45,565 nucleotides of DNA from Methanosarcinales archaeon (lineage in GTDB: Archaea; Halobacteriota; Syntropharchaeia; Alkanophagales; Methanospirareceae). Where the stretch lies: the NCBI GenBank assembly GCA_030611045.1, contig JAUWQN010000006.1, forward strand, positions 1 through 45,565, written 5' to 3'. This document shows positions 18,811 to 29,993 of this stretch, piece by piece (within the stretch, counting starts at the first letter, position 1; each line of letters begins with the position of its first letter). The position numbers and the translations under genes were made by a program. Below the pieces are notes generated by a model. That model searched no databases. It was given only the letters and a program-made list of their open reading frames with translations, and was not told where the DNA came from.

Positions 18811-20862
18811 ATGAAACTGGGAGTTTTTCTATGCACGTGCAACAGCACCATGGACATAGATTTTAAGAACGTCAAGAAAAGCATAAAGAAGGAAGTTGAG
18901 GTCGTTGAGACGGTTGATCAGCTATGCCAGAGAGACTTGGATTATGTTATAGATGACGTTAGGCGATTGGAACTTGATGGCATACTCATAGCGGCGTGCA
19001 CAGAAAAGAACCGCATCTTTGATCGGGTGACGTCTGGATTTGGCTGTGATACGTTCTTCCTAAACCTCAGAGAGCACTGCGGTTGGGTGCATGGTCGAAA
19101 AGAAGCGACTGAAAAGGCGAAAAGCATGATTAAAGCTGCTATCAGCCATGCTGAGCTGAGTGAGTCACTGCTAAGACCTGAAAAGCTCGATTTGGATGTG
19201 GGGTATGACGTGTTAGTGATAGGGGACGAGGATGAGGGAGCGGTAGAAGTTGCGAAGATCCTTTCTAAACTGGCTAACGTCCATCTGCTGACGAAGAATA
19301 TTCGTGAATGGTGTGATGAGCCCGAAATACATATTGGCTCGCCCATAGGCATACAGGGAGAGATCGGCGATTTTGACGTTGAGATTGAGAGAGATATAGA
19401 TATAGAAAAGTGCATCTCCTGCGGGCTGTGCGTTGACGCGTGCCCGAAAAATGTGATACGCTATGATGCAGTATACACGATTGGCGAGGGCTGTGATGAA
19501 TGCGGCGACTGTATTGAAGTGTGCCCAACAGGTGCTATTGAGTTCCACAACCGAGAGGTGCTTCATGTAGGGCAAATTCTCGTGATTGATAAGGACTGGC
19601 AATGGCCAACCTACTTTGGGATTTATAAAGCGGACGATTACGAAGATGCACTAAGAAAAGCGCATGATGTAGTTTCGAATTTAGGAGAGATAGGGAAAGA
19701 GAAGTATTTAGCGTTAGATTTGACAAGGTGTGCAAGTGGACGGGGTGAATTAGTTGGGTGTGAGTTATGTTTACCCTGCCCCTACGAGGCGATCGAAAGG
19801 GAGGGGTCCAAGATGGTGTTCAGCGATGTGCGGTGTCAAGGATGTGGGCTCTGCGCTTCTTTATGCCCGGTATCAGTCCCGCAACTACGTGAATATCCCC
19901 ACCAGTTACTGTATTCTCAAATAGGAACTTTATTAGCCGGAGATTTGCACCCAAAAGTTATAGTATTCACCGGTCAGGAAAACGTTGAAAAGTTAAATGC
20001 GGTTGGCAGGAAGAAAATTCAGTATCCTGCAGTATTACCGCTCTTCGTGCCTTGCGCTGATATGGTATCCGAGGCTCATATACTCAGCGCATTTGAACGC
20101 GGAGCCGATGGCGTTATCCTATGGAGCTGCGAAAACAGTCACCGTGAACAGATCGAATCTGCGGTGTCATTTGCGCAAAAGACCTTATCAGCCTTCGGTT
20201 TAGGAGAGCGAGTGCTTTTGATGGATAATGCCCACCAATTCGATGCAGCGGATTTCGCGAATGAAATTAGCGATTTCGTAGATAAGCTCAAACTATCTCC
20301 TATCAGAAAGAAGAAGCGGGGAACAATTGACTTTACCAAACCGAAACGGGATATTCTGCTGGAATTGATGCAAACCTTCCGTATGAAAACCGGCGTGCAG
20401 CCAACGTTAATAGAGGAGAATACGCAGTTCCCGTTCGCGGATGTCGCTATCAATTCGAAATGCACGCTCTGCAACGCGTGCGTGACCATGTGCCCAACAA
20501 ATGTCCTGAGTAAAGACGATAATAATATCAACTTCGTCTATGGTAGCTGTATCGCCTGCGGTATGTGTGAGCAGGCATGCCCGGAAGAAGCGGTTGATTT
20601 AAAGCGAGTGCTTGATTTTTCGCAACTGGTTGAAGAAGGAAGTAAAAAACTTGTCGAAGCTGAACTTGTTGCCTGTGCGAAGTGTGGCAAATTATTTATG
20701 CCCAAATCGGCATTTGAGCGAATGGCGCAGATATTGAAAGAAGGAAAAGATGAGGGTGAGTTCAACATAGAGGAACGATTAGAGCTGCTCAGATATTGTG
20801 AGAAGTGCAGACCTGTAAAAGCTGTTGAGTGGTCATTAGAAAAATTGGAGAGTGAAAAATAA
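18811..20862 (+). CDS. HdrA-like / MvhD-like multi-cluster iron-sulfur fusion protein
   Basis: A 683-residue cytoplasmic redox protein. Residues 1-118 resemble the HdrA N-terminus (GVFLCTCNS, then NLREHCGWVHGRKEATEKA). The following Rossmann-like part (VIGDEDEGAVEVA) lacks the GxGxxG expected of an FAD site. Ferredoxin-type clusters lie at about 201-238 and 307-353. Residues 382-470 resemble the MvhD/FrhD electron-transfer domain (VPCADMVSEAHILSAFERGADGVIL). Two further clusters lie at about 553-592, then a CxxC...CxxC tail. It starts the redox island, with the chaperone gene 1 nt downstream. It probably links cytoplasmic carriers to the molybdoenzymes; partners are inferred. Confidence 0.8.
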   Translation: MKLGVFLCTCNSTMDIDFKNVKKSIKKEVEVVETVDQLCQRDLDYVIDDVRRLELDGILIAACTEKNRIFDRVTSGFGCDTFFLNLREHCGWVHGRKEATEKAKSMIKAAISHAELSESLLRPEKLDLDVGYDVLVIGDEDEGAVEVAKILSKLANVHLLTKNIREWCDEPEIHIGSPIGIQGEIGDFDVEIERDIDIEKCISCGLCVDACPKNVIRYDAVYTIGEGCDECGDCIEVCPTGAIEFHNREVLHVGQILVIDKDWQWPTYFGIYKADDYEDALRKAHDVVSNLGEIGKEKYLALDLTRCASGRGELVGCELCLPCPYEAIEREGSKMVFSDVRCQGCGLCASLCPVSVPQLREYPHQLLYSQIGTLLAGDLHPKVIVFTGQENVEKLNAVGRKKIQYPAVLPLFVPCADMVSEAHILSAFERGADGVILWSCENSHREQIESAVSFAQKTLSAFGLGERVLLMDNAHQFDAADFANEISDFVDKLKLSPIRKKKRGTIDFTKPKRDILLELMQTFRMKTGVQPTLIEENTQFPFADVAINSKCTLCNACVTMCPTNVLSKDDNNINFVYGSCIACGMCEQACPEEAVDLKRVLDFSQLVEEGSKKLVEAELVACAKCGKLFMPKSAFERMAQILKEGKDEGEFNIEERLELLRYCEKCRPVKAVEWSLEKLESEK

Positions 20863-20863
20863 G

Positions 20864-21526
20864 ATGAACGAAATTGAAGATATTTTGGCGACACGAAGGG
20901 ACTTCTATGCCTTTTTGTATCGAATGTATGTGGAAGAGCCGGCACGGGAGTTTGCAGACGACTTGGTGAACGGAAGGGTCCGTTTCCAAGAGCTGACATC
21001 GTTAGAGATAAATGCGGAGCTATCAGAGGGCTTTCGTTTATTAAAAGAGTTTATGAAGAAGAGCAAAGGCAAAGAGGTTAATGCACTCTATGAAGACTTG
21101 AGAGACGAATATACGCTCTTGTTCATAGGCCCTTTTAAGCTCCCTGTGCAGCCCTACGAGTCGTGGTGGGTGAGTGGAAAGTTGCGTGGTGAACCACTGG
21201 TAAAGCTGAAGAAAGATTACAGGGAAGCAGGTATTGTTAAATCACGAGAGTTTGTAGAGATCGAAGACCATATCACATTTGAACTCAAGTTTATGCACTA
21301 TCTCTGCGAGGAGGCATTATCGGCGGATACGCAAGAAAGGGTGAAGGAATGCTTAAAGCTACAAAGAGATTTTTTAGATAACCATATATTGAAATGGATG
21401 CCGAATTACTGCGACGCGTTATACGAATACAAGCTATCAGATTTCTATAAAGGCATTGCAAAGATTACAAAAGGGTTTATTTTCTTGGATGATGCAGTGA
21501 TCAGCGATTTGTTGGATAGCGTGTAG
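20864..21526 (+). CDS. TorD/DmsD-family molybdoenzyme chaperone
   Basis: A 220-residue, mostly helical protein of the TorD/NarJ/DmsD type, which binds the Tat signal of molybdoenzymes and delays export until cofactor insertion. Recognisable features are the N-terminal RRDFYAFLYRMYVEEP, the central YTLLFIGPFKLPVQPYESWW and EDHITFELKFMHYLCEEA, the family's E/D-H-motif region. The ATG at 20864 follows the previous stop by 1 nt. Two Tat-bearing molybdoenzymes downstream with near-identical signals are its probable clients. Confidence 0.88.
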   Translation: MNEIEDILATRRDFYAFLYRMYVEEPAREFADDLVNGRVRFQELTSLEINAELSEGFRLLKEFMKKSKGKEVNALYEDLRDEYTLLFIGPFKLPVQPYESWWVSGKLRGEPLVKLKKDYREAGIVKSREFVEIEDHITFELKFMHYLCEEALSADTQERVKECLKLQRDFLDNHILKWMPNYCDALYEYKLSDFYKGIAKITKGFIFLDDAVISDLLDSV

Positions 21527-21584: not shown

Positions 21585-22025
21585 ATGGATGAATTAGATA
21601 AGAAGATATTGAGAGAACTCCAGTTGGATGCGCGCCAATCGTTCACGACGATTGCGCAGAAGATAAAAATCAGTACCGCTACGGTGAGCGATAGAGTGAA
21701 AAAGCTGACCGAAAAAGGGCTTATCTGTTGATATACTACGATTCTCAATACATCTGAGATTGGTATGGCCACCTTGATCACGAGGATAAAAACCAAGCCG
21801 GGATGTAGTATTGAGGATGTGGGGGGGGGGATAGCGAAATTAGAAGAAAGTTGTAGCATTTACCACATAACCGGTGATTTTGACCTCATGATTATCACTA
21901 AGTGCCCTGGACAGGGAAAATGTGGGGCTGTTATTGAGAAGATAAAAGAAATCAAAGGTGTGGAAAGGGTGAATTCAGAAATCGTGCTCAAGATACTGAA
22001 GGAAGAGCTTACGGTTACGTTGTGA
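21585..22025 (+). pseudogene. Lrp/AsnC-family regulator interrupted by in-frame TGA
   Basis: A single frame of 147 codons, the normal Lrp length, with a TGA at codon 49 (21729-21731). Before it lies the helix-turn-helix: MDELDKKILRELQLDARQSF, then ISTATVSDRVKKLTEKGLI. After it come YTTILNT and a ligand-binding RAM domain (MATLITRIKTKPGCS ... HITGDFDLMIITK). Homologues normally read GxIxGY at this junction, so the TGA falls on the conserved Gly codon (GGA to TGA). A run of ten G at 21821-21830 keeps the frame. Either the gene is dead, it makes two pieces, or it is conditionally expressed. Confidence 0.75.
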
Positions 22026-22248
22026 GGGTTTTATTGCACGATTTTTTTGATTTTTTAGTTTTTATCCATTTCCGGCTGAGAATACCAGCCTGCTAATACC
22101 CCCCCCTATCAGTCTATGTCCGTTTTATAAAAATCTTATTTTGTCCACGTATATGAACTATTTGCTAAAAAACATCATGGTTTATATACCCACCTCACAT
22201 TTGAGTGTACACACGTATAGTTAAGTAGTTAGGAAGGAGGTGGAAAAA
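22026..22248. other. Promoter region of molybdoenzyme 1
   Basis: Noncoding. It holds T-rich stretches after the Lrp frame, a run of eight C at 22099-22106, and a TATA-like TTTATATAC at 22181-22189. A strong Shine-Dalgarno AAGGAGGTG lies just before the ATG at 22249. The TATA box is about 65 nt upstream of the start. Confidence 0.5.
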
Positions 22249-24486
22249 ATGGAGGTACGAACAAATACTGGTTGTGGTGGAGCAAGAGTATCAAGGCGGA
22301 CATTTACCAAGCTAACAGCTTTAGGAGCGGCAGCGGCACTGAGTGGCATCAGCAATGTCGGCGCTTATCCAATGGAGCACTTTGACAAGTTGATTGAACC
22401 CGCAATTGCGGCTCCCGCAGAAGCAGAAAGAATCGTATATGGTATATGCGAGATGTGCCCCTTTAACTGTGGCATAAAAGTGACATGTGAAGAAGGAGTG
22501 GTGAAATCGATAGAGGGAAATCCAAATGAACCACACTCAAAAGGGAAACTCTGCGCACGCGGAAACTCGGCAGAACAGGTGATATATAATCCGAACAGGG
22601 TTAAATATCCGCTTATACGAACTGGAGAGAGAGGTGCTGGGGGGTGGAAGCGTGCAACCTGGGATGAAGCGCTGGATTACGTTGCCGGAAAGCTGAATGA
22701 GATAAAAGGGAACTATGGCCCTGAAAGTATAGCCATAATACAATTTCCCACCAGCAGGATGGTTCCTTTGGTGGGAAGGTTTCAGAAGGCTTTGGGAACA
22801 CCGAATTATTTCACGAGTCTTGGAACCTGTAAAATCTCACGAGTTGTCGCGGACATCGCAACGTTGGGCGGACACATTCTGAATGCCGTTGATTTCGCAA
22901 ATGCGAAGTATATCATGCTCTTCGGCAGGAACACGTTCGAAACGCCAGCAACTGGTTCTGTTCAGGCTTTATCGGCTGCTATTACAAGCGGAGCGAAACT
23001 GGTATATTTAGACCCCCGGTATACGGTTACTGCTTCAAAGGCGGATGAATGGATACCTATAAAACCCGGAACTGATCTGGCTTTCGTCCTGGCGATGATG
23101 AATGTTATTATTAGAGAAGGGCTCTACGATGAAGAATTCATAAATACATACACCTACGGCTTTGAGGAGCTAAAAGAATTTATCGGGGAATATACTCCGG
23201 AATGGGCGGAAGGAATTACTGATGTTCCTGCAGCGCAGATTGAACGGATTGCGATTGAGTTCGCCACAACCAAACCAGCAGTAGCTCATCCAAATTGGCA
23301 TCCAAAGGGGTACGAAAGCGAGACACAGATAAGTAGAGGAATATTAATTCTGAATGCGTTGGTGGGGAACATAAATAAGCCGGGCGGAATCTTTTATCCG
23401 CGAGGAGTGGGATTGGGAGACATAAAACCACCGGCATATCCAGAGATAACCGCTAAGCGGGTGGATGGTGTTCCAGGCACGTACCCACTTGTTCCCGCAA
23501 GCCACGGGCTCTGGCAGTTATTACCCGATGCGATCATAAATGAGGACCCATATCCGGTAAAAGGTTTGATAGTCTATCGCTCGAATCCGCTCTTTGGAAT
23601 GCCTGATAGAAATAGGATTATTGAAGCATTCAAGAAACTCGATCTGCTGGTCGCCATTGATATCTTACCCAGCGATACCGCCTGGTACGCTGATGTTATC
23701 CTACCGGAGTGCACCTATTTGGAACGGGATGACCCTCCAATGGTTATCAAGGGAAAATCGCCAAAAGTCGCTTTGCGTCAACAATGCGTTGAGCCAATGT
23801 ACGATTCAAAGCATTCGTTCTGGATATTTAAGGAACTGGCTCAGAGAATAGGGATTGGAAATTACTTTGACTTTGAGTTGGATGACTACATTAATGCTCA
23901 ACTCAAGCCACTCGGGATTGACAAAGATTACTTCAAAGAGAACTCGATTTGGTCTTCTGATATAAGTCCAGAACTGAAGGGGCTTGAAGGGATGAAAATA
24001 AACACGTCCACCGGGAAAATAGAGCTTTATTCAAAGAAGCTTGAGGCGAATGGATATGATCCATTACCAACGTTTGTGCCGCCAAAAGAAGCTCCCAGTG
24101 GCATGTTTAGACTGCTGCACGGACATATAGCAGTGCACACCCATGCAAATCCAGCAACCTTTGATAATGCGTACCTGAACGAAATTTGCTCAGAGAACGA
24201 GCTCTGGATAAATACAGAGACCGCTATGGATTTGGGGATCATGAATGGAGAATACGTCTGGGTTGAAAATGAGCTCAGTAGAGGCAAGATAAAAGCAAAG
24301 GTTACGGAGCAAATAAGACCTGATGCCGTATTCATGTTGCACGGATTCGGACACCTATCACCAGATCTCACGTTAACGTACGGAAAGGGACTCAACGATA
24401 ATGATTTCATCAAAGCGGGTGCAGATCCAATAGGCGGGGTATGTCCAATGGGTGAGACCTTTGTAAGGATATATAGGGAGGGATAG
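22249..24486 (+). CDS. Tat-exported molybdopterin oxidoreductase (PsrA/PhsA-type)
   Basis: A 745-residue catalytic subunit of the DMSO-reductase superfamily. The Tat signal is SRRTFTKLTALG at residues 15-26. A [4Fe-4S] site is formed by C67, C70, C74 and C102. The probable Mo/W ligand is C194 in TSLGTCKIS, which favours the polysulfide/thiosulfate/arsenate reductase or formate dehydrogenase branches over Ser-ligated DMSO reductase. The C-terminal cofactor domain ends with GGVCPMGETFVRIY. ATG 22249 has the Shine-Dalgarno; a GTG at 22240 is also in frame. The ferredoxin subunit follows by 6 nt. Substrate is uncertain. Confidence 0.88.
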   Translation: MEVRTNTGCGGARVSRRTFTKLTALGAAAALSGISNVGAYPMEHFDKLIEPAIAAPAEAERIVYGICEMCPFNCGIKVTCEEGVVKSIEGNPNEPHSKGKLCARGNSAEQVIYNPNRVKYPLIRTGERGAGGWKRATWDEALDYVAGKLNEIKGNYGPESIAIIQFPTSRMVPLVGRFQKALGTPNYFTSLGTCKISRVVADIATLGGHILNAVDFANAKYIMLFGRNTFETPATGSVQALSAAITSGAKLVYLDPRYTVTASKADEWIPIKPGTDLAFVLAMMNVIIREGLYDEEFINTYTYGFEELKEFIGEYTPEWAEGITDVPAAQIERIAIEFATTKPAVAHPNWHPKGYESETQISRGILILNALVGNINKPGGIFYPRGVGLGDIKPPAYPEITAKRVDGVPGTYPLVPASHGLWQLLPDAIINEDPYPVKGLIVYRSNPLFGMPDRNRIIEAFKKLDLLVAIDILPSDTAWYADVILPECTYLERDDPPMVIKGKSPKVALRQQCVEPMYDSKHSFWIFKELAQRIGIGNYFDFELDDYINAQLKPLGIDKDYFKENSIWSSDISPELKGLEGMKINTSTGKIELYSKKLEANGYDPLPTFVPPKEAPSGMFRLLHGHIAVHTHANPATFDNAYLNEICSENELWINTETAMDLGIMNGEYVWVENELSRGKIKAKVTEQIRPDAVFMLHGFGHLSPDLTLTYGKGLNDNDFIKAGADPIGGVCPMGETFVRIYREG

Positions 24487-24492
24487 ATAAAG

Positions 24493-24984
24493 ATGGTATA
24501 CAAATTTCTGTTTGATGTAGGCCGATGCATTGATTGCAAGGCATGTGAAGTCGCCTGTAAACAGCAAAACGATGTTGAAATAGGCGTGAGATGGAGAAGA
24601 GTGCCAGAAATAGAGGGGGGGAAATATCCAAACCCGTCCAGAACATTTCTCTCGCTCGCATGCTTCCATTGCTCACGTCCCTATTGCATGGCAGCATGTC
24701 CAACGGGAGCGATATATCAACGAGCTGATGGTATTGTTTTGACCGATAAGGACAAGTGTATCGGTTGCGGATATTGCGTAATGGCATGTCCCTTTGCGGT
24801 ACCTGAATACGGAAGCGACGGGCTGATGCAAAAGTGTGTGGCGTGCTACCAGAGGATTGATAAAGGTTTAGACCCTGCCTGTGTTCATACTTGCTTGACC
24901 GGTGCTTTAGCGTTCGACACGCAAGAAGTGATTGCAAAGATAAAAAGGGAAAGAGTGGCGGAGAAAGTTATCATATCTCCATAG
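24493..24984 (+). CDS. Four-cluster ferredoxin subunit (DmsB/PsrB-type)
   Basis: A 163-residue electron-transfer subunit. It has the DmsB pattern: CIDCKACEVACKQQN at the start, CFHCSRPYCMAACPTGAI, CIGCGYCVMACPFAVP, then CVACYQR with DPACVHTC. This gives up to four cubane clusters. There is no signal peptide, so it would be co-exported with the Tat-bearing catalytic subunit upstream, as known for this family. No membrane anchor gene follows. The complex may therefore be soluble or share the anchor encoded at 28992. Confidence 0.92.
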   Translation: MVYKFLFDVGRCIDCKACEVACKQQNDVEIGVRWRRVPEIEGGKYPNPSRTFLSLACFHCSRPYCMAACPTGAIYQRADGIVLTDKDKCIGCGYCVMACPFAVPEYGSDGLMQKCVACYQRIDKGLDPACVHTCLTGALAFDTQEVIAKIKRERVAEKVIISP

Positions 24985-25622
24985 ATTGCCGGTCTTTTAA
25001 CAGGCAGACAATCCCAAAACTTCTAAATGACAATAGTTGGTGTAACGGCACGATAAGCCTGATACCGAGAAAAAACGTTGTCAGTATCTCGTGCAAATAG
25101 CCAGTCTGCATTATATTCCTCTTTAAAGTCTATCATAAAATAAATTGATTTGCAATTTTACCCACAGAGGCAAAAGTTTTTTGAGAACGCTGATGAGTAG
25201 TTTAGAATGGTACCACAAAAGGGGGGATTTAGAATATGCAGCACAAACGGGGGGTGGTGCTAAAACACCAAGTAGTCCTACACCCACTCCCAAGTCCCCG
25301 AGTTATGAAGCCAAGCCATCTTTGCAGTTGGCGGCTTTTATTAGCGGTAGCTTATCTGGCTGGAGAGAAGAAGGAGATAGTTGTCATATCTCCATCCGGG
25401 TAGATCGCGCAAATTTTAGATAGCGAGTTCTTCCGGTGTTTTGGTGGTTGGTAAGTAAGGTATATCGCCATTCAAGAAACATACAGCATGCAGTGACAAT
25501 CTTTTGATCCCTGCACTTTCTTAGTTTTGAATGAAGCCGTCAAAACCGAAAAGCTTTTATATATAGTAGAGGTATCGAATTACAACTAAGGAGGAAAAAT
25601 AGAAGGAGAAAGAGGTGAAATA
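24985..25622. other. 638-nt gap between the two molybdoenzyme operons
   Basis: No convincing gene. A 92-codon frame at 25145-25423 is low in complexity (Pro/Ser/Thr repeats), has no family resemblance and lacks a good ribosome site. A short frame ending near 25401 finishes KEIVVISPSG, faintly like the end of the preceding ferredoxin (EKVIISP), and could be a duplicated scrap. Several G and C runs occur around 25219-25255. The right end carries the promoter of molybdoenzyme 2. Confidence 0.4.
25546..25566 (+). promoter_or_regulatory. BRE/TATA promoter of the formate-dehydrogenase-like operon
   Basis: CCGAAAAG followed by CTTTTATATATAG is a textbook archaeal TFB-recognition element and TATA box. 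It lies about 60-75 nt before the ATG at 25623. The same CCGAAAAG plus TTTATATA combination precedes ftsZ at 40041-40056. Confidence 0.7.
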
Positions 25623-28418
25623 ATGGCGACAAGAACAAAATCTATGGATAAAAGTAGTGGTATCAGATTGTCAAGGCGGACGTTCACTAAACTGACTGCC
25701 TTAGGAACTGCAGCGGCTCTTAGTGGCATCAGCAGTGTCGGTACGTCAGCAGCTGAAATCTTAGTACCTGCAGCAAGTGCGGCTCCTGCTCCCGGTGTAA
25801 AGCTCGTAAAATCTATCTGTTCCCACTGCGCTGTGGGATGCGGATTCCACGGGGTAATTGAGGATGGTGTATGTACAGGACTTGAGCCGTGGACCGATCA
25901 TCCCGTCTGTCAAGGTGGGATGTGTTCCAAGGGAACTTCGATAGCAGAGATGATCAACTCGGAGACACGGCTGAAATCCCCGATGAAGAAGGTCGGGGGC
26001 AAGTGGGTAAAGATCTCCTGGACCGAGGCGTTGGATGAGATTGCGAACAAGGTCAAGCAAGTACAGTCGACGTATGGACCCGACTCGATCTTCTGGATGG
26101 GTTCTGCCAAAATGACAAACGAGGAATGCTACTTATTCAGGAAATTTGCGGCCTTTAACGGCACGAATAACGTAGACCACCAGGCGCGGATCTGCCATTC
26201 CACAACCGTTTTTGGGATGGCGAACACCTGGAGCTTTGGTGCAATGACCAACTCGTGGAACGACATGCGACACTCAGGGTTGATCTTCTTCTGCGGTGAA
26301 AATGCTGCCAATTCGCATCCAGTCTCGATGCAGCATATCCTCGAGGCGAAGAGAAGAGGCGCAAAGTTCATCGTAGCAGACCCGCGATTTACGAAGTCCG
26401 CAGCACTGGCAGATCAGTACATACGATTCAGATCTGGCACAGACATAGCACTGATCATGGGGATGGCCAATTGGATTATCCAGAACGACTGGCACAACAA
26501 GGACTTCATCGCGGAGAGGGGTTACGGATTTGACGCATTCAAGGAGGAAGCGGCGAAATATACGCCTGAAGTGGTGGAGGACATCACCTGGGTTCCGGCA
26601 GAGACTCTCAAGGAGCTCGCGTACGATTGGGCACACCCACCTGCTGCTGAGCTCGGTGAAGACTCTGTAGCATGTATATGCTGGGCAATGGGTGCTACGC
26701 AGCATACGGTTGGTACGCATAACATCAGGTCGTTTGCATGCCTCTCAGCTCTTATGGGTTATGTTGGCAAACCAGGTGGAGGCTGTAATGCGTTCAGAGG
26801 GCATGACAATGTGCAGGGCGCGACCGACATGTGCATCTTATCCCACTCACTCCCAGCCTACTATGGGCTTTCTGATGGGGCGTGGAAGCACTGGGTCGGT
26901 GTCTGGAACAGGCATGCGCCAGTAACCTTCGATGAGATGAAGGCGAAGTTCGCGGAGCACAACGGCAAGTCATTGATAAACGTGAAGGGACTTACAGATT
27001 CACGGTGGTACGAAGGTGTGCTCAACACTGATGAATTCCCGGTTAATCAGCCAAATCCGGTCAAGATGGCTTTCGTCTGGGGCCATTCACTGAACTCGAT
27101 CACAGAGATGAAGAAAATGAAGCAGGCGATGGAAAAGGTCGAACTGCTTGTTGGCGTGGATCCACATGCGACGATTGCAGCATCCCTTGCGGATAGACCT
27201 GATGGAATTATAGTACTGCCTGCATCTACGGTCTTCGAGAAAGACGGAAGCGTTTCGAACAGTGCGAGACAGGTGCAGTGGAGGAACACGCTGGTAGAGC
27301 CTATGTACGACAGCAGGACTGACTACTGGATCATGAAGGAGCTTGCAACCCGGCTTGGGTTCGGTGCGCACTTCACGTACAACAGCCCCGAAGATATAAC
27401 CCGAGAGTTCAACCTGGGTATGCGTGTAATCATGATGAAGCAATCGCCGGAGCGGTTAAAGAAGCAGCAGCAATACTGTGCTGATTTCGGTGTTGAGGAC
27501 TGCCAGGCGAAAAGCGGACCCTGTGCTGGCGAATACTATGGACTGCCATGGCCATGCTGGAATGATGAACATCCGGGAACACCGTTGTTATACAGGAATG
27601 ATGTCCCGATTTCAGAAGGTGGTAACGATTTCAGAACCAAATTCAAAGACGCAGCCCAATCTACACCCGGTAACCCGGTCTCGGATGATGGCGTGAGCAT
27701 GTTAGCAACGGGAGGATACGACGAGTTGAACAGCGATGGCACACCAGGTGGTGGCTGGAAGACAGAACTCGACGAGGATTTCAAAGATATAATTGCGCAG
27801 AACCTCTGCCCGTCAGGCTCTGGAAGAATGAGATTCCGAGCATGGAACTTGCCAGACTTTGTTCCTACACACAGAGAGCCGATAGAAAGCCCGAGACCCG
27901 ACCTGATTGACAAATATCCGACATACGATGACGTTGCGGACCATTACCGTATCCCGTGCAAGTATAAGACGATACAGCAGGAACGGAAGAATCTGGTGAA
28001 TGAGGGCTTCCCACTCATACTTACCACGGGAAGACAGGTAGAGCACATGGGTGGCGGCGCAGAGACGAGGTCATGTCATTACCTTGTGGAGCTTCAGCCG
28101 GAGATGTATGCAGAGATAAATCCAAAAACTGCTGGAAGCATAGGTGTCAAACATTGGGACTACGTATGGGTAGAGACGCTGAGAGGACGGTGCAAGGTGA
28201 GAGCGTATGTGACGGAGCGTGTGAACGACCAGACAGTATTCATGCCATACCACTGGGCAGGCTGGTTTGAAGGCGAGTCCTATGCGGACAGATGGCCGGA
28301 AGGAACCTGTGAACTCGCACTCGGTGATTCGGTCAACATAATATGTGTGGACGGATACGACAGGACATCGAACATGCAAGAGACAAAGGCATGCCAGTGT
28401 AAGGTGTACAAGTTTTAG
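25623..28418 (+). CDS. Tat-exported formate-dehydrogenase-N-like catalytic subunit
   Basis: A 931-residue molybdopterin enzyme. The Tat signal is SRRTFTKLTALG at 18-29, and C66, C69, C73 and C101 hold a [4Fe-4S] cluster. The block VDHQARICHST closely matches the FdhG/FdoG active-site motif. C191 stands where many homologues have selenocysteine and H192 is the conserved partner. AMTNSWNDM follows, also as in Fdh-N. It should oxidise formate, or reduce CO2, outside the membrane. It belongs to an operon with the four-cluster subunit and an anchor. Another substrate in the same family cannot be excluded. Confidence 0.85.
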   Translation: MATRTKSMDKSSGIRLSRRTFTKLTALGTAAALSGISSVGTSAAEILVPAASAAPAPGVKLVKSICSHCAVGCGFHGVIEDGVCTGLEPWTDHPVCQGGMCSKGTSIAEMINSETRLKSPMKKVGGKWVKISWTEALDEIANKVKQVQSTYGPDSIFWMGSAKMTNEECYLFRKFAAFNGTNNVDHQARICHSTTVFGMANTWSFGAMTNSWNDMRHSGLIFFCGENAANSHPVSMQHILEAKRRGAKFIVADPRFTKSAALADQYIRFRSGTDIALIMGMANWIIQNDWHNKDFIAERGYGFDAFKEEAAKYTPEVVEDITWVPAETLKELAYDWAHPPAAELGEDSVACICWAMGATQHTVGTHNIRSFACLSALMGYVGKPGGGCNAFRGHDNVQGATDMCILSHSLPAYYGLSDGAWKHWVGVWNRHAPVTFDEMKAKFAEHNGKSLINVKGLTDSRWYEGVLNTDEFPVNQPNPVKMAFVWGHSLNSITEMKKMKQAMEKVELLVGVDPHATIAASLADRPDGIIVLPASTVFEKDGSVSNSARQVQWRNTLVEPMYDSRTDYWIMKELATRLGFGAHFTYNSPEDITREFNLGMRVIMMKQSPERLKKQQQYCADFGVEDCQAKSGPCAGEYYGLPWPCWNDEHPGTPLLYRNDVPISEGGNDFRTKFKDAAQSTPGNPVSDDGVSMLATGGYDELNSDGTPGGGWKTELDEDFKDIIAQNLCPSGSGRMRFRAWNLPDFVPTHREPIESPRPDLIDKYPTYDDVADHYRIPCKYKTIQQERKNLVNEGFPLILTTGRQVEHMGGGAETRSCHYLVELQPEMYAEINPKTAGSIGVKHWDYVWVETLRGRCKVRAYVTERVNDQTVFMPYHWAGWFEGESYADRWPEGTCELALGDSVNIICVDGYDRTSNMQETKACQCKVYKF

Positions 28419-28437
28419 GAGGCAATGAGAAAGAAAA

Positions 28438-28974
28438 ATGACGACGTATAAATTCCTGAACGTGATTGAGAAATGCATAAACTGCGGAGGGTGTTTTGCC
28501 ATCTGCAAAGATACGAACAAGGTACCACATGGAACCGCCAGAGTGAAGATAGTGACAATTAACGAGGGCGTACCCGGCGAGAGGAATATACCAGTCTCCT
28601 GTATGCACTGCACGAATCCACCCTGTGAGGCTGCATGTCCAGTGAAGGCGATCGAACAGCGAGCGGACGGTGTAGTTCTGGTGGATAAGGACAAGTGCAT
28701 AGGCTGCGGATATTGCGGTTGGGCATGCCCGTTTGGCGCGCCACAGTATCCACATGATCTGCATGGTGCGGCCGCGGAATACGAGGGGATAATGGACAAG
28801 TGCACGTTATGCGTGACGCCTTTCGTGCCGGGAGCCACACTGAAATCGCCACAGCCGAAGTGTGCACAGTTCTGCTCGACAAAGTGCCGTCTCGGAGGAG
28901 ATATAAACGAGATATTGCCACAGTATAGAGAAGCGAAGGCTCGGAACATAATTGCTTGGCAAGAGCGGGTGTAA
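28438..28974 (+). CDS. Iron-sulfur subunit of the formate-dehydrogenase-like complex
   Basis: A 178-residue DmsB/FdhB-type protein. Cysteine groups in order are CINCGGCFAICKDTN, CMHCTNPPCEAACPVKAI, CIGCGYCGWACPFGAP and a final set CTLC...KCAQFCSTKC, giving four cubane sites. The start ATG at 28438 follows the catalytic gene by 19 nt. It should pass electrons from the catalytic subunit to the anchor. It differs from the ferredoxin subunit at 24493 mainly in its longer C-terminal loop. Confidence 0.92.
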   Translation: MTTYKFLNVIEKCINCGGCFAICKDTNKVPHGTARVKIVTINEGVPGERNIPVSCMHCTNPPCEAACPVKAIEQRADGVVLVDKDKCIGCGYCGWACPFGAPQYPHDLHGAAAEYEGIMDKCTLCVTPFVPGATLKSPQPKCAQFCSTKCRLGGDINEILPQYREAKARNIIAWQERV

Positions 28975-28991
28975 AGGAGGGATAGGTAACA

Positions 28992-29993
28992 ATGAGTAGT
29001 GCAGTTACAGCATACGTGGTCTTCACGGTGTTCACTCAGATGTCAGTGGGTGCGTTGATAGCAATGCTTATCGCCGACTTCCTTGCGAAGAGTAAAGAGG
29101 ATGCGAAGTTCTTTGAGACCGGGGCATGGATCTGTGTCCCGGTTGCCGCTATCGGCTTGATTGGTATACTTTCACACGAGGCACGACCGATCTTAGCGAT
29201 GATAACGATGACTAAAAACGTGAGTGCATCATTGCTGAGTCAAGAAGTACTGTTGCTTACGATTTTTGTCACCTTAGCAGTGGTGTATACCGCGATGTGG
29301 ATATTAGAGCCGGAATACGGTAGTCTCAAAGGATTCCCAGTGATACCTGCGATAGTAGGGAAGCTAATGCCGCTCAGGAAGCCTGTTGGAGTCTTAGCTG
29401 CAGTGGTGGGACTTGTGTTCCCCTATATAAGTGCGGCTGCATACATGATGTACACACTCCCCTCTTTGAATCATCCAACGACGATACTGTTCTTCTACGT
29501 TACCGCTCTGCTTGCAGGCGTAACGGCAGTAGCAGCAGTTCTTTCAGTGAAATATATGCTGAAAAAAGAGGGAGACGAGCCTTTAGCACAGATGCTCTGG
29601 ATTACAGTGGGAACCGCGCTTGTGATGATCATCGTGCTTGCCGTAGGACTTTGTCTGAATACCGGCATGCTACAAGTCGCGGAGACAGAATATGCACAAG
29701 TTGCGCAACAGGAAACGCTAACAAGCATGTTGTCGGGCGAATACTCTACGCTATACATGGCACGATGGGTAATAGGCGTTGGACTGGCTCTCTTATGCAC
29801 CATAGCACTTGCATTGCCACTGAGGAATAAGAGCATGGCAACAGCTTCGATGATAGCAATTGTTCTGTTCATCGTCGTGTTCAGCGGTGAGGTTATGGGA
29901 CGAACAGTAATGTTTGGTACGAACGTGCCTTTTGGTGATGTCTGTCACGCCTTACCCAGCATAGAGACATTCTATACCACAATTGGGCTATAA
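28992..29993 (+). CDS. DmsC-like membrane anchor subunit
   Basis: A 333-residue integral membrane protein with about eight helices (near 8-30, 46-66, 82-104, 130-153, 160-184, 195-218, 258-281 and 285-307). The late motif GEVMGRTVMFG matches the conserved GE(x)2GR region of DmsC anchors, the quinone/quinol-side subunits of DMSO-reductase-like complexes. It follows the iron-sulfur gene by 17 nt, behind a GGAGGGATAGG ribosome site. It would pass electrons between the membrane carrier pool (methanophenazine or quinone) and the exported enzyme. Confidence 0.85.
   Translation: MSSAVTAYVVFTVFTQMSVGALIAMLIADFLAKSKEDAKFFETGAWICVPVAAIGLIGILSHEARPILAMITMTKNVSASLLSQEVLLLTIFVTLAVVYTAMWILEPEYGSLKGFPVIPAIVGKLMPLRKPVGVLAAVVGLVFPYISAAAYMMYTLPSLNHPTTILFFYVTALLAGVTAVAAVLSVKYMLKKEGDEPLAQMLWITVGTALVMIIVLAVGLCLNTGMLQVAETEYAQVAQQETLTSMLSGEYSTLYMARWVIGVGLALLCTIALALPLRNKSMATASMIAIVLFIVVFSGEVMGRTVMFGTNVPFGDVCHALPSIETFYTTIGL

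Follow-up and report, generated by a model that had tools for sequence, protein, structure and literature searches.

An FdhA that bears a signal sequence, is exported and has a DmsC-like anchor has been described as occurring sporadically among ANME-1 genomes, so that an exported formate dehydrogenase with DmsC is already known in ANME-1 (Chadwick et al. 2022, PMC9012536, in the excerpts considered here). A solved enzyme of similar type is SoFdhAB of Shewanella oneidensis (PDB 9VAP), a reversible Cys-tungsten enzyme for the interconversion of CO2 and formate (2026 review, PMC13397495). In the formate-sulfur respiration of Halodesulfurarchaeum and Wolinella, an outward formate dehydrogenase and Psr-type reductases are linked by menaquinone (PMC5437934). 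The locus studied here, within a window of 45,565 nucleotides, would share this layout; however, the known systems are cultured and have several Psr enzymes, whereas the window comes from an uncultured ANME-1 archaeon with one DmsC for two modules. The locus differs from the known kind in its anchor-less PsrAB partner, the single TorD and anchor, the portable signal and the cytochrome-poor setting. In the excerpts of PMC9012536, neither a PsrAB module nor a single TorD nor a Tat co-occurrence is mentioned, and polysulfide and thiosulfate do not appear in its main text.

The window belongs to a 1.54-Mb genome that is 99% complete and contains mcrA, and its host is a C1 archaeon of the ANME-1 family, as an earlier note on this DNA had supposed. 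Both catalytic open reading frames are intact and lie where that note placed them. They gave the only long matches in the window genome when it was searched with the Molybdopterin-domain family; a third, partial match lies in a 436-aa frame that probably encodes formylmethanofuran dehydrogenase. Below, G-numbers are genomes (mostly ANME-1-family relatives) and L-numbers are loci or stretches; cytochromes and Tat signals were scanned for in stretches L235-L334, which cover ~85% of the window genome.

Features of the molybdoenzyme locus, listed in gene order (positions are those of the window)
Feature	Position	Strand	Evidence or remark
HdrA/FlpD-like polyferredoxin, Fe-S, 686 aa	18802..20862	+	NCBIfam/Pfam FlpD and Fer4
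TorD-family chaperone	20852..21526	+	Pfam PF02613, E=5e-36
Lrp/AsnC-type regulator, broken by in-frame TGA where relatives encode glycine	21585..22025	+	
Catalytic molybdopterin subunit, PsrA/PhsA-like, Tat signal	22249..24486	+	NCBIfam PhsA, PDB 2vpw, tree
Fe-S subunit, PsrB/DmsB-like, 163 aa	24493..24984	+	NCBIfam/Pfam matches
Intergenic gap with remnants of decayed FdhA neighbours	24985..25622	.	tblastn
FdhA, catalytic subunit of formate dehydrogenase, Tat signal	25623..28418	+	Cys191, His192, Arg392
FdhB, Fe-S subunit, 178 aa, FDH3-beta-like	28438..28974	+	NF038355, 170 bits, below cutoff 240
DmsC-type membrane anchor	28992..29993	+	Pfam PF04976, E = 1e-17, 65 bits against cutoff 22

The best solved-structure match of FdhA was 9VAP (830 bits, full-length), and in a quick LG+G4 tree FdhA fell within a 34-row clade (support 100) that holds 9VAP together with ANME-1, haloarchaeal, Archaeoglobales, Desulfobacterota and proteobacterial homologues. 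The Cys191-His192 pair, which the earlier note had correctly put at the Fdh active site, is invariant across 9 FdhA sequences, and so is Arg392 (in the motif FRGHDNVQG). Several Desulfobacterota relatives (L131, L135, L137, L139) have TGA at the position of Cys191 in a frame that is otherwise open, and these are probably selenoproteins. FdhD is a sulfurtransferase needed by formate dehydrogenases; its genes are found near the FdhA operons of relatives, and one is also present in the window genome. Because of this tree placement, the three residues, the selenocysteine codon in relatives and FdhD beside relatives, FdhA is assigned as a formate dehydrogenase, and the second enzyme, FdhAB, very probably has formate dehydrogenase chemistry. 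With the model TIGR01591, FdhA scored 538 of 666 bits and did not reach the NCBIfam cutoff, and the window FdhA and FdhB are relatives, not equivalogs, of the TIGR01591 and NF038355 families. The likeness to SoFdhAB/FDH3-type FdhABC extends beyond the full-length match to the Cys ligand, the short four-cluster beta subunit, and accessory genes for TorD and Fe-S proteins, which related operons also contain. As gamma subunit, the tested relatives outside ANME-1 have either NrfD or a cytochrome b561-type protein, in contrast to the DmsC of the window.

The description of this enzyme as of formate-dehydrogenase-N type was not borne out. FdhA scored 380 of 814 bits with TIGR01553, E. coli FdnG lies on a branch separate from the FdhA clade, the beta subunit has 178 aa compared to about 290 aa (294 codons in E. 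coli fdnH), and the anchor is DmsC with no cytochrome b. The tree of both catalytic subunits that had been proposed as a check thus kept FdhA inside the formate dehydrogenases and away from FDH-N (FdnGHI), and placed the PsrA-like subunit with Thermus PsrA (support 95, but at a point where long branches meet).

For this PsrA-like subunit, the start can be GTG at 22240 or ATG at 22249 after AGGAGGT; the latter, which had been chosen before, matches the N-termini of relatives better. A Cys is kept at the metal-ligand position in the alignment with 2vpw (497 bits), and Cys197, counted from GTG 22240, is the candidate ligand. The NCBIfam PhsA model gave 591 of 694 bits, below its cutoff, and the ArrA and DmsA models scored far below PhsA. 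The enzyme thus resembles Thermus PsrABC and Salmonella-type PhsABC in having a PsrA catalytic subunit with an Fe-S subunit, but differs from them in having no PsrC/NrfD anchor and in scoring below the PhsA cutoff. Homologues in G003, G004 and G022 share 85-95% identity with PsrA, and a further fragment is present in G010. In G010 and G022, PsrAB lies on another contig than FdhABC and has different downstream genes, and no anchor gene adjoins PsrAB of this clade in G000, G003, G004, G010 or G022. A second ANME-1 clade, PsrA2 (G020, G030, G059), has its own DmsC, and in G059 the Fe-S subunit of the PsrA2 module is FdhB-like.

The Tat signals of the two catalytic subunits read SRRTFTKLTALG[A/T]AAALSGIS[N/S]VG. 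As the earlier note had seen, they are nearly the same: 22/24 residues agree, compared to 32% identity in the mature parts, and the signal bases are 82% alike. Both contain an SRRxF twin-arginine motif with a hydrophobic stretch, a TatC pair is present in the window genome, and both enzymes are predicted to be exported by Tat. The same codon is used at 12/22 shared signal residues compared to 5.9 expected (p = 0.004; mature parts, 32%), which shows that the signals are related by descent and led us to reject mere convergence. The exchange had been called recent, but 10/22 shared residues have synonymous codon differences and pairs from the same genome are no closer than pairs across genomes (76% and 75% alike), which supports an old exchange instead. 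In the scanned ~85% of the window genome, PsrA and FdhA were the only convincing Tat precursors, and two further matches resemble membrane proteins. TatC, normally a divergent pair, is present in 24/51 family members, in 20/22 cargo genomes compared to 4/29 others (p = 2.5e-8, a nominal value uncorrected for phylogeny, given the kinship of the genomes and the incompleteness of some).

Only one TorD was found in the window genome, in agreement with the shared chaperone that had been proposed. The HdrA/FlpD-like gene has the same position, upstream of TorD-FdhA, in L027, L028, L033, L035, L036 and distant FdhA operons, and its product is probably an accessory or electron-transfer protein. The Lrp/AsnC regulator is intact in G003, G004, G006 and G022. 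In the gap before FdhA, tblastn detected a redoxin fragment at 25026-25130 (-; 74% over 35 aa) and a fragment of a 222-aa FdhA neighbour at 25223-25306 (+; 52% over 29 aa), which we read as fossils of the gene arrangement seen in G001, G005 and G059. When the window is compared with G004, identity is about 96% in the flanks (MCM, PCMT) and 95% in PsrA, but only 54-64% in FdhA, FdhB, DmsC and TorD. Across G003 and G004, TorD and FdhBC are 56-64% identical to those of the window, whereas PsrA is 85-95% identical. The TorD proteins of G003, G004 and G006 are 95% alike. It seems that FdhABC and TorD were replaced while PsrAB between them was conserved. Since TorD has diverged in G003 and G004 while PsrA is conserved, PsrA appears to work with either type of TorD, which the conserved signal would permit.

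The second enzyme does have the membrane anchor that the earlier note gave it, the DmsC-type protein (PF04976), whose His62 and Glu85 correspond in the alignment to His65 and Glu87 of E. coli DmsC, which we take to be quinol-site residues. Of the two enzymes in the window, just FdhA-FdhB has an anchor gene alongside. The window genome has one DmsC and gave no match to NrfD, and each genome with this PsrAB (G000, G003, G004, G010, G022) has exactly one DmsC. In G022, FdhB and DmsC are kept beside the TatC pair, and therefore G022 probably also has the formate dehydrogenase. The DmsC of the PsrA2 clade is 56-59% identical to that of the window; since that clade carries it and the G059 Fe-S subunit is FdhB-like, a window-type DmsC can presumably serve Psr-like modules. 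With a single DmsC, no NrfD, no anchor beside PsrAB and the DmsC of PsrA2, the simplest reading is that PsrAB docks on the same DmsC as FdhAB, and we consider the chance of such a shared anchor to be slightly below even. The evidence for a single anchor is circumstantial, and the split contigs of G010 and G022 mean that PsrAB may work alone. The AlphaFold models were of low confidence (DmsC, pLDDT 48, no alignment used; PsrA, pLDDT 40 from a 6-row alignment).

We propose an outward-facing respiratory unit in which formate is oxidized into the quinone pool with PsrAB as an anchor-sharing partner, and we hold this reading of the genes to be evenly balanced. TorD would hold both catalytic subunits by their common signal until molybdopterin is loaded, and Tat would then export each of them with its Fe-S partner. 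FdhAB would dock on DmsC, oxidize formate outside the cell and pass the electrons to the quinone pool, and PsrAB, which is without its own anchor, would dock on the same DmsC and exchange electrons between that pool and a sulfur compound. FdhD, for cofactor sulfuration, and the paired TatC would be the supporting genes. Comprising a formate dehydrogenase and a Psr-like reductase that lacks an anchor, both possibly bound to one quinone anchor, the unit would be candidate machinery for electron disposal or uptake in cytochrome-free ANME-1.

PsrAB could instead be a free heterodimer outside the membrane that is functionally unrelated to FdhABC and has only the chaperone and the Tat signal in common with it, as would fit the separate contigs and other downstream genes in G010 and G022 and an anchor that is never adjacent to this PsrAB clade. 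However, no multihaem cytochrome that could be its electron acceptor was found in the ~85% of the genome that was scanned and the related PsrA2 enzymes possess a DmsC anchor, and we consider free PsrAB somewhat unlikely. As for its substrate, there is about an even chance that this is a sulfur compound, for example polysulfide or thiosulfate. The reduction of polysulfide or thiosulfate by menaquinol is uphill by standard potentials, which counts against the proposed unit. It is rather unlikely that PsrA works on a non-sulfur substrate such as arsenate, DMSO or another oxyanion. The long PsrA branch in the tree would allow this, and ArsP_1 permeases occur on the PsrA contig stretches of G003, G020 and G030, but an arsenic role based on these genes is a weak rival: ArsP lies several kb off, and among curated entries it is most similar to SaoE and to Cu/Zn efflux transporters. 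Moreover, the nearest characterised relative of PsrA is the Thermus polysulfide/thiosulfate reductase, and the ArrA and DmsA scores speak against such substrates. A stronger version of the shared anchor, in which, in an ANME-1 without multihaem cytochromes, PsrAB is a terminal reductase on the DmsC of the formate dehydrogenase and passes electrons from methane oxidation or formate to an extracellular sulfur compound, is quite improbable in our judgement; if it were true, the organism would not have to pass electrons directly to a bacterial partner. That the locus is an assembly chimera of unrelated contigs is extremely improbable. The divergence from G004 is indeed far greater in FdhABC and TorD than in the flanks, but PsrA lies between TorD/Lrp and FdhA in G003 and G004 too, G006 agrees up to PsrA at a contig end, the composition across the window is fairly even, and allelic replacement explains the mosaic.

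The direction of the formate dehydrogenase bears on whether formate could serve as a product for partners, as had been suggested earlier. Formate (-430 mV) is about 350 mV below menaquinone (near -74 mV; PMC5437934), which favours formate oxidation over production. The enzyme is thus likely to run as formate oxidation into the quinone pool, and formate is more likely a substrate than a product. The reverse role, an extracellular CO2 reductase that gives formate to a partner organism, would be consistent with the reversibility of SoFdhAB (PMC13397495), and a soluble carrier would be useful where ~85% of the genome shows no multihaem cytochromes. However, the reduction of CO2 (-430 mV) is not readily driven by quinol at ~-74 mV (PMC5437934), and experiments to date have not supported formate as a carrier in AOM (Chadwick et al. 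2022, PMC9012536, as excerpted); we regard this role as improbable. In the cytochrome scan, no frame with at least 3 CxxCH haem-c motifs was found in ~85% of the window genome, while the same scan detects 5-9-haem proteins in other ANME-1 loci. The lack of multihaem cytochromes possibly resembles 'Ca. Methanoalium'. Complex I/Fqo-like genes are present in the window genome. E. coli FocA, a distant query for a formate channel, gave no match in the same ~85%.

Several further observations were made in relatives. Rhodanese-redoxin and redoxin-DsbD genes lie near FdhABC in G001 (L030:13001-15474) and form a possible link to sulfur, and a CoA-disulfide-reductase-like gene lies near PsrA in G022 and G020 and, by the look of the sequence, in G010. 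ArsP_1-type permeases are encoded within several kb of PsrA genes in three genomes (L039:10474-11586; L046:12674-13816; L108:4650-5132). The divergent TatC pair (e.g. L113:7573-9150) is a constant arrangement in the family, often beside FdhABC. In Ca. Ethanoperedens thermophilum (L120:6553-15305), TorD, Lrp, FdhA (73% identical to that of the window), FdhB and a TatC pair occur together, and DmsC was not seen directly downstream. Since the neighbours of this FdhA are just 35-63% identical to ANME-1 genes, transfer is more likely than misbinning. In G031 (L097:7093-8804), TorD adjoins a NiFe hydrogenase, and an FdhA-type Tat signal is present on the small subunit of this hydrogenase. The orthologue in the window genome (L299) starts without a signal, and therefore the G031 signal is probably a graft; a portable Tat signal would thus be common to two molybdoenzymes of unrelated function and to a hydrogenase in a relative.
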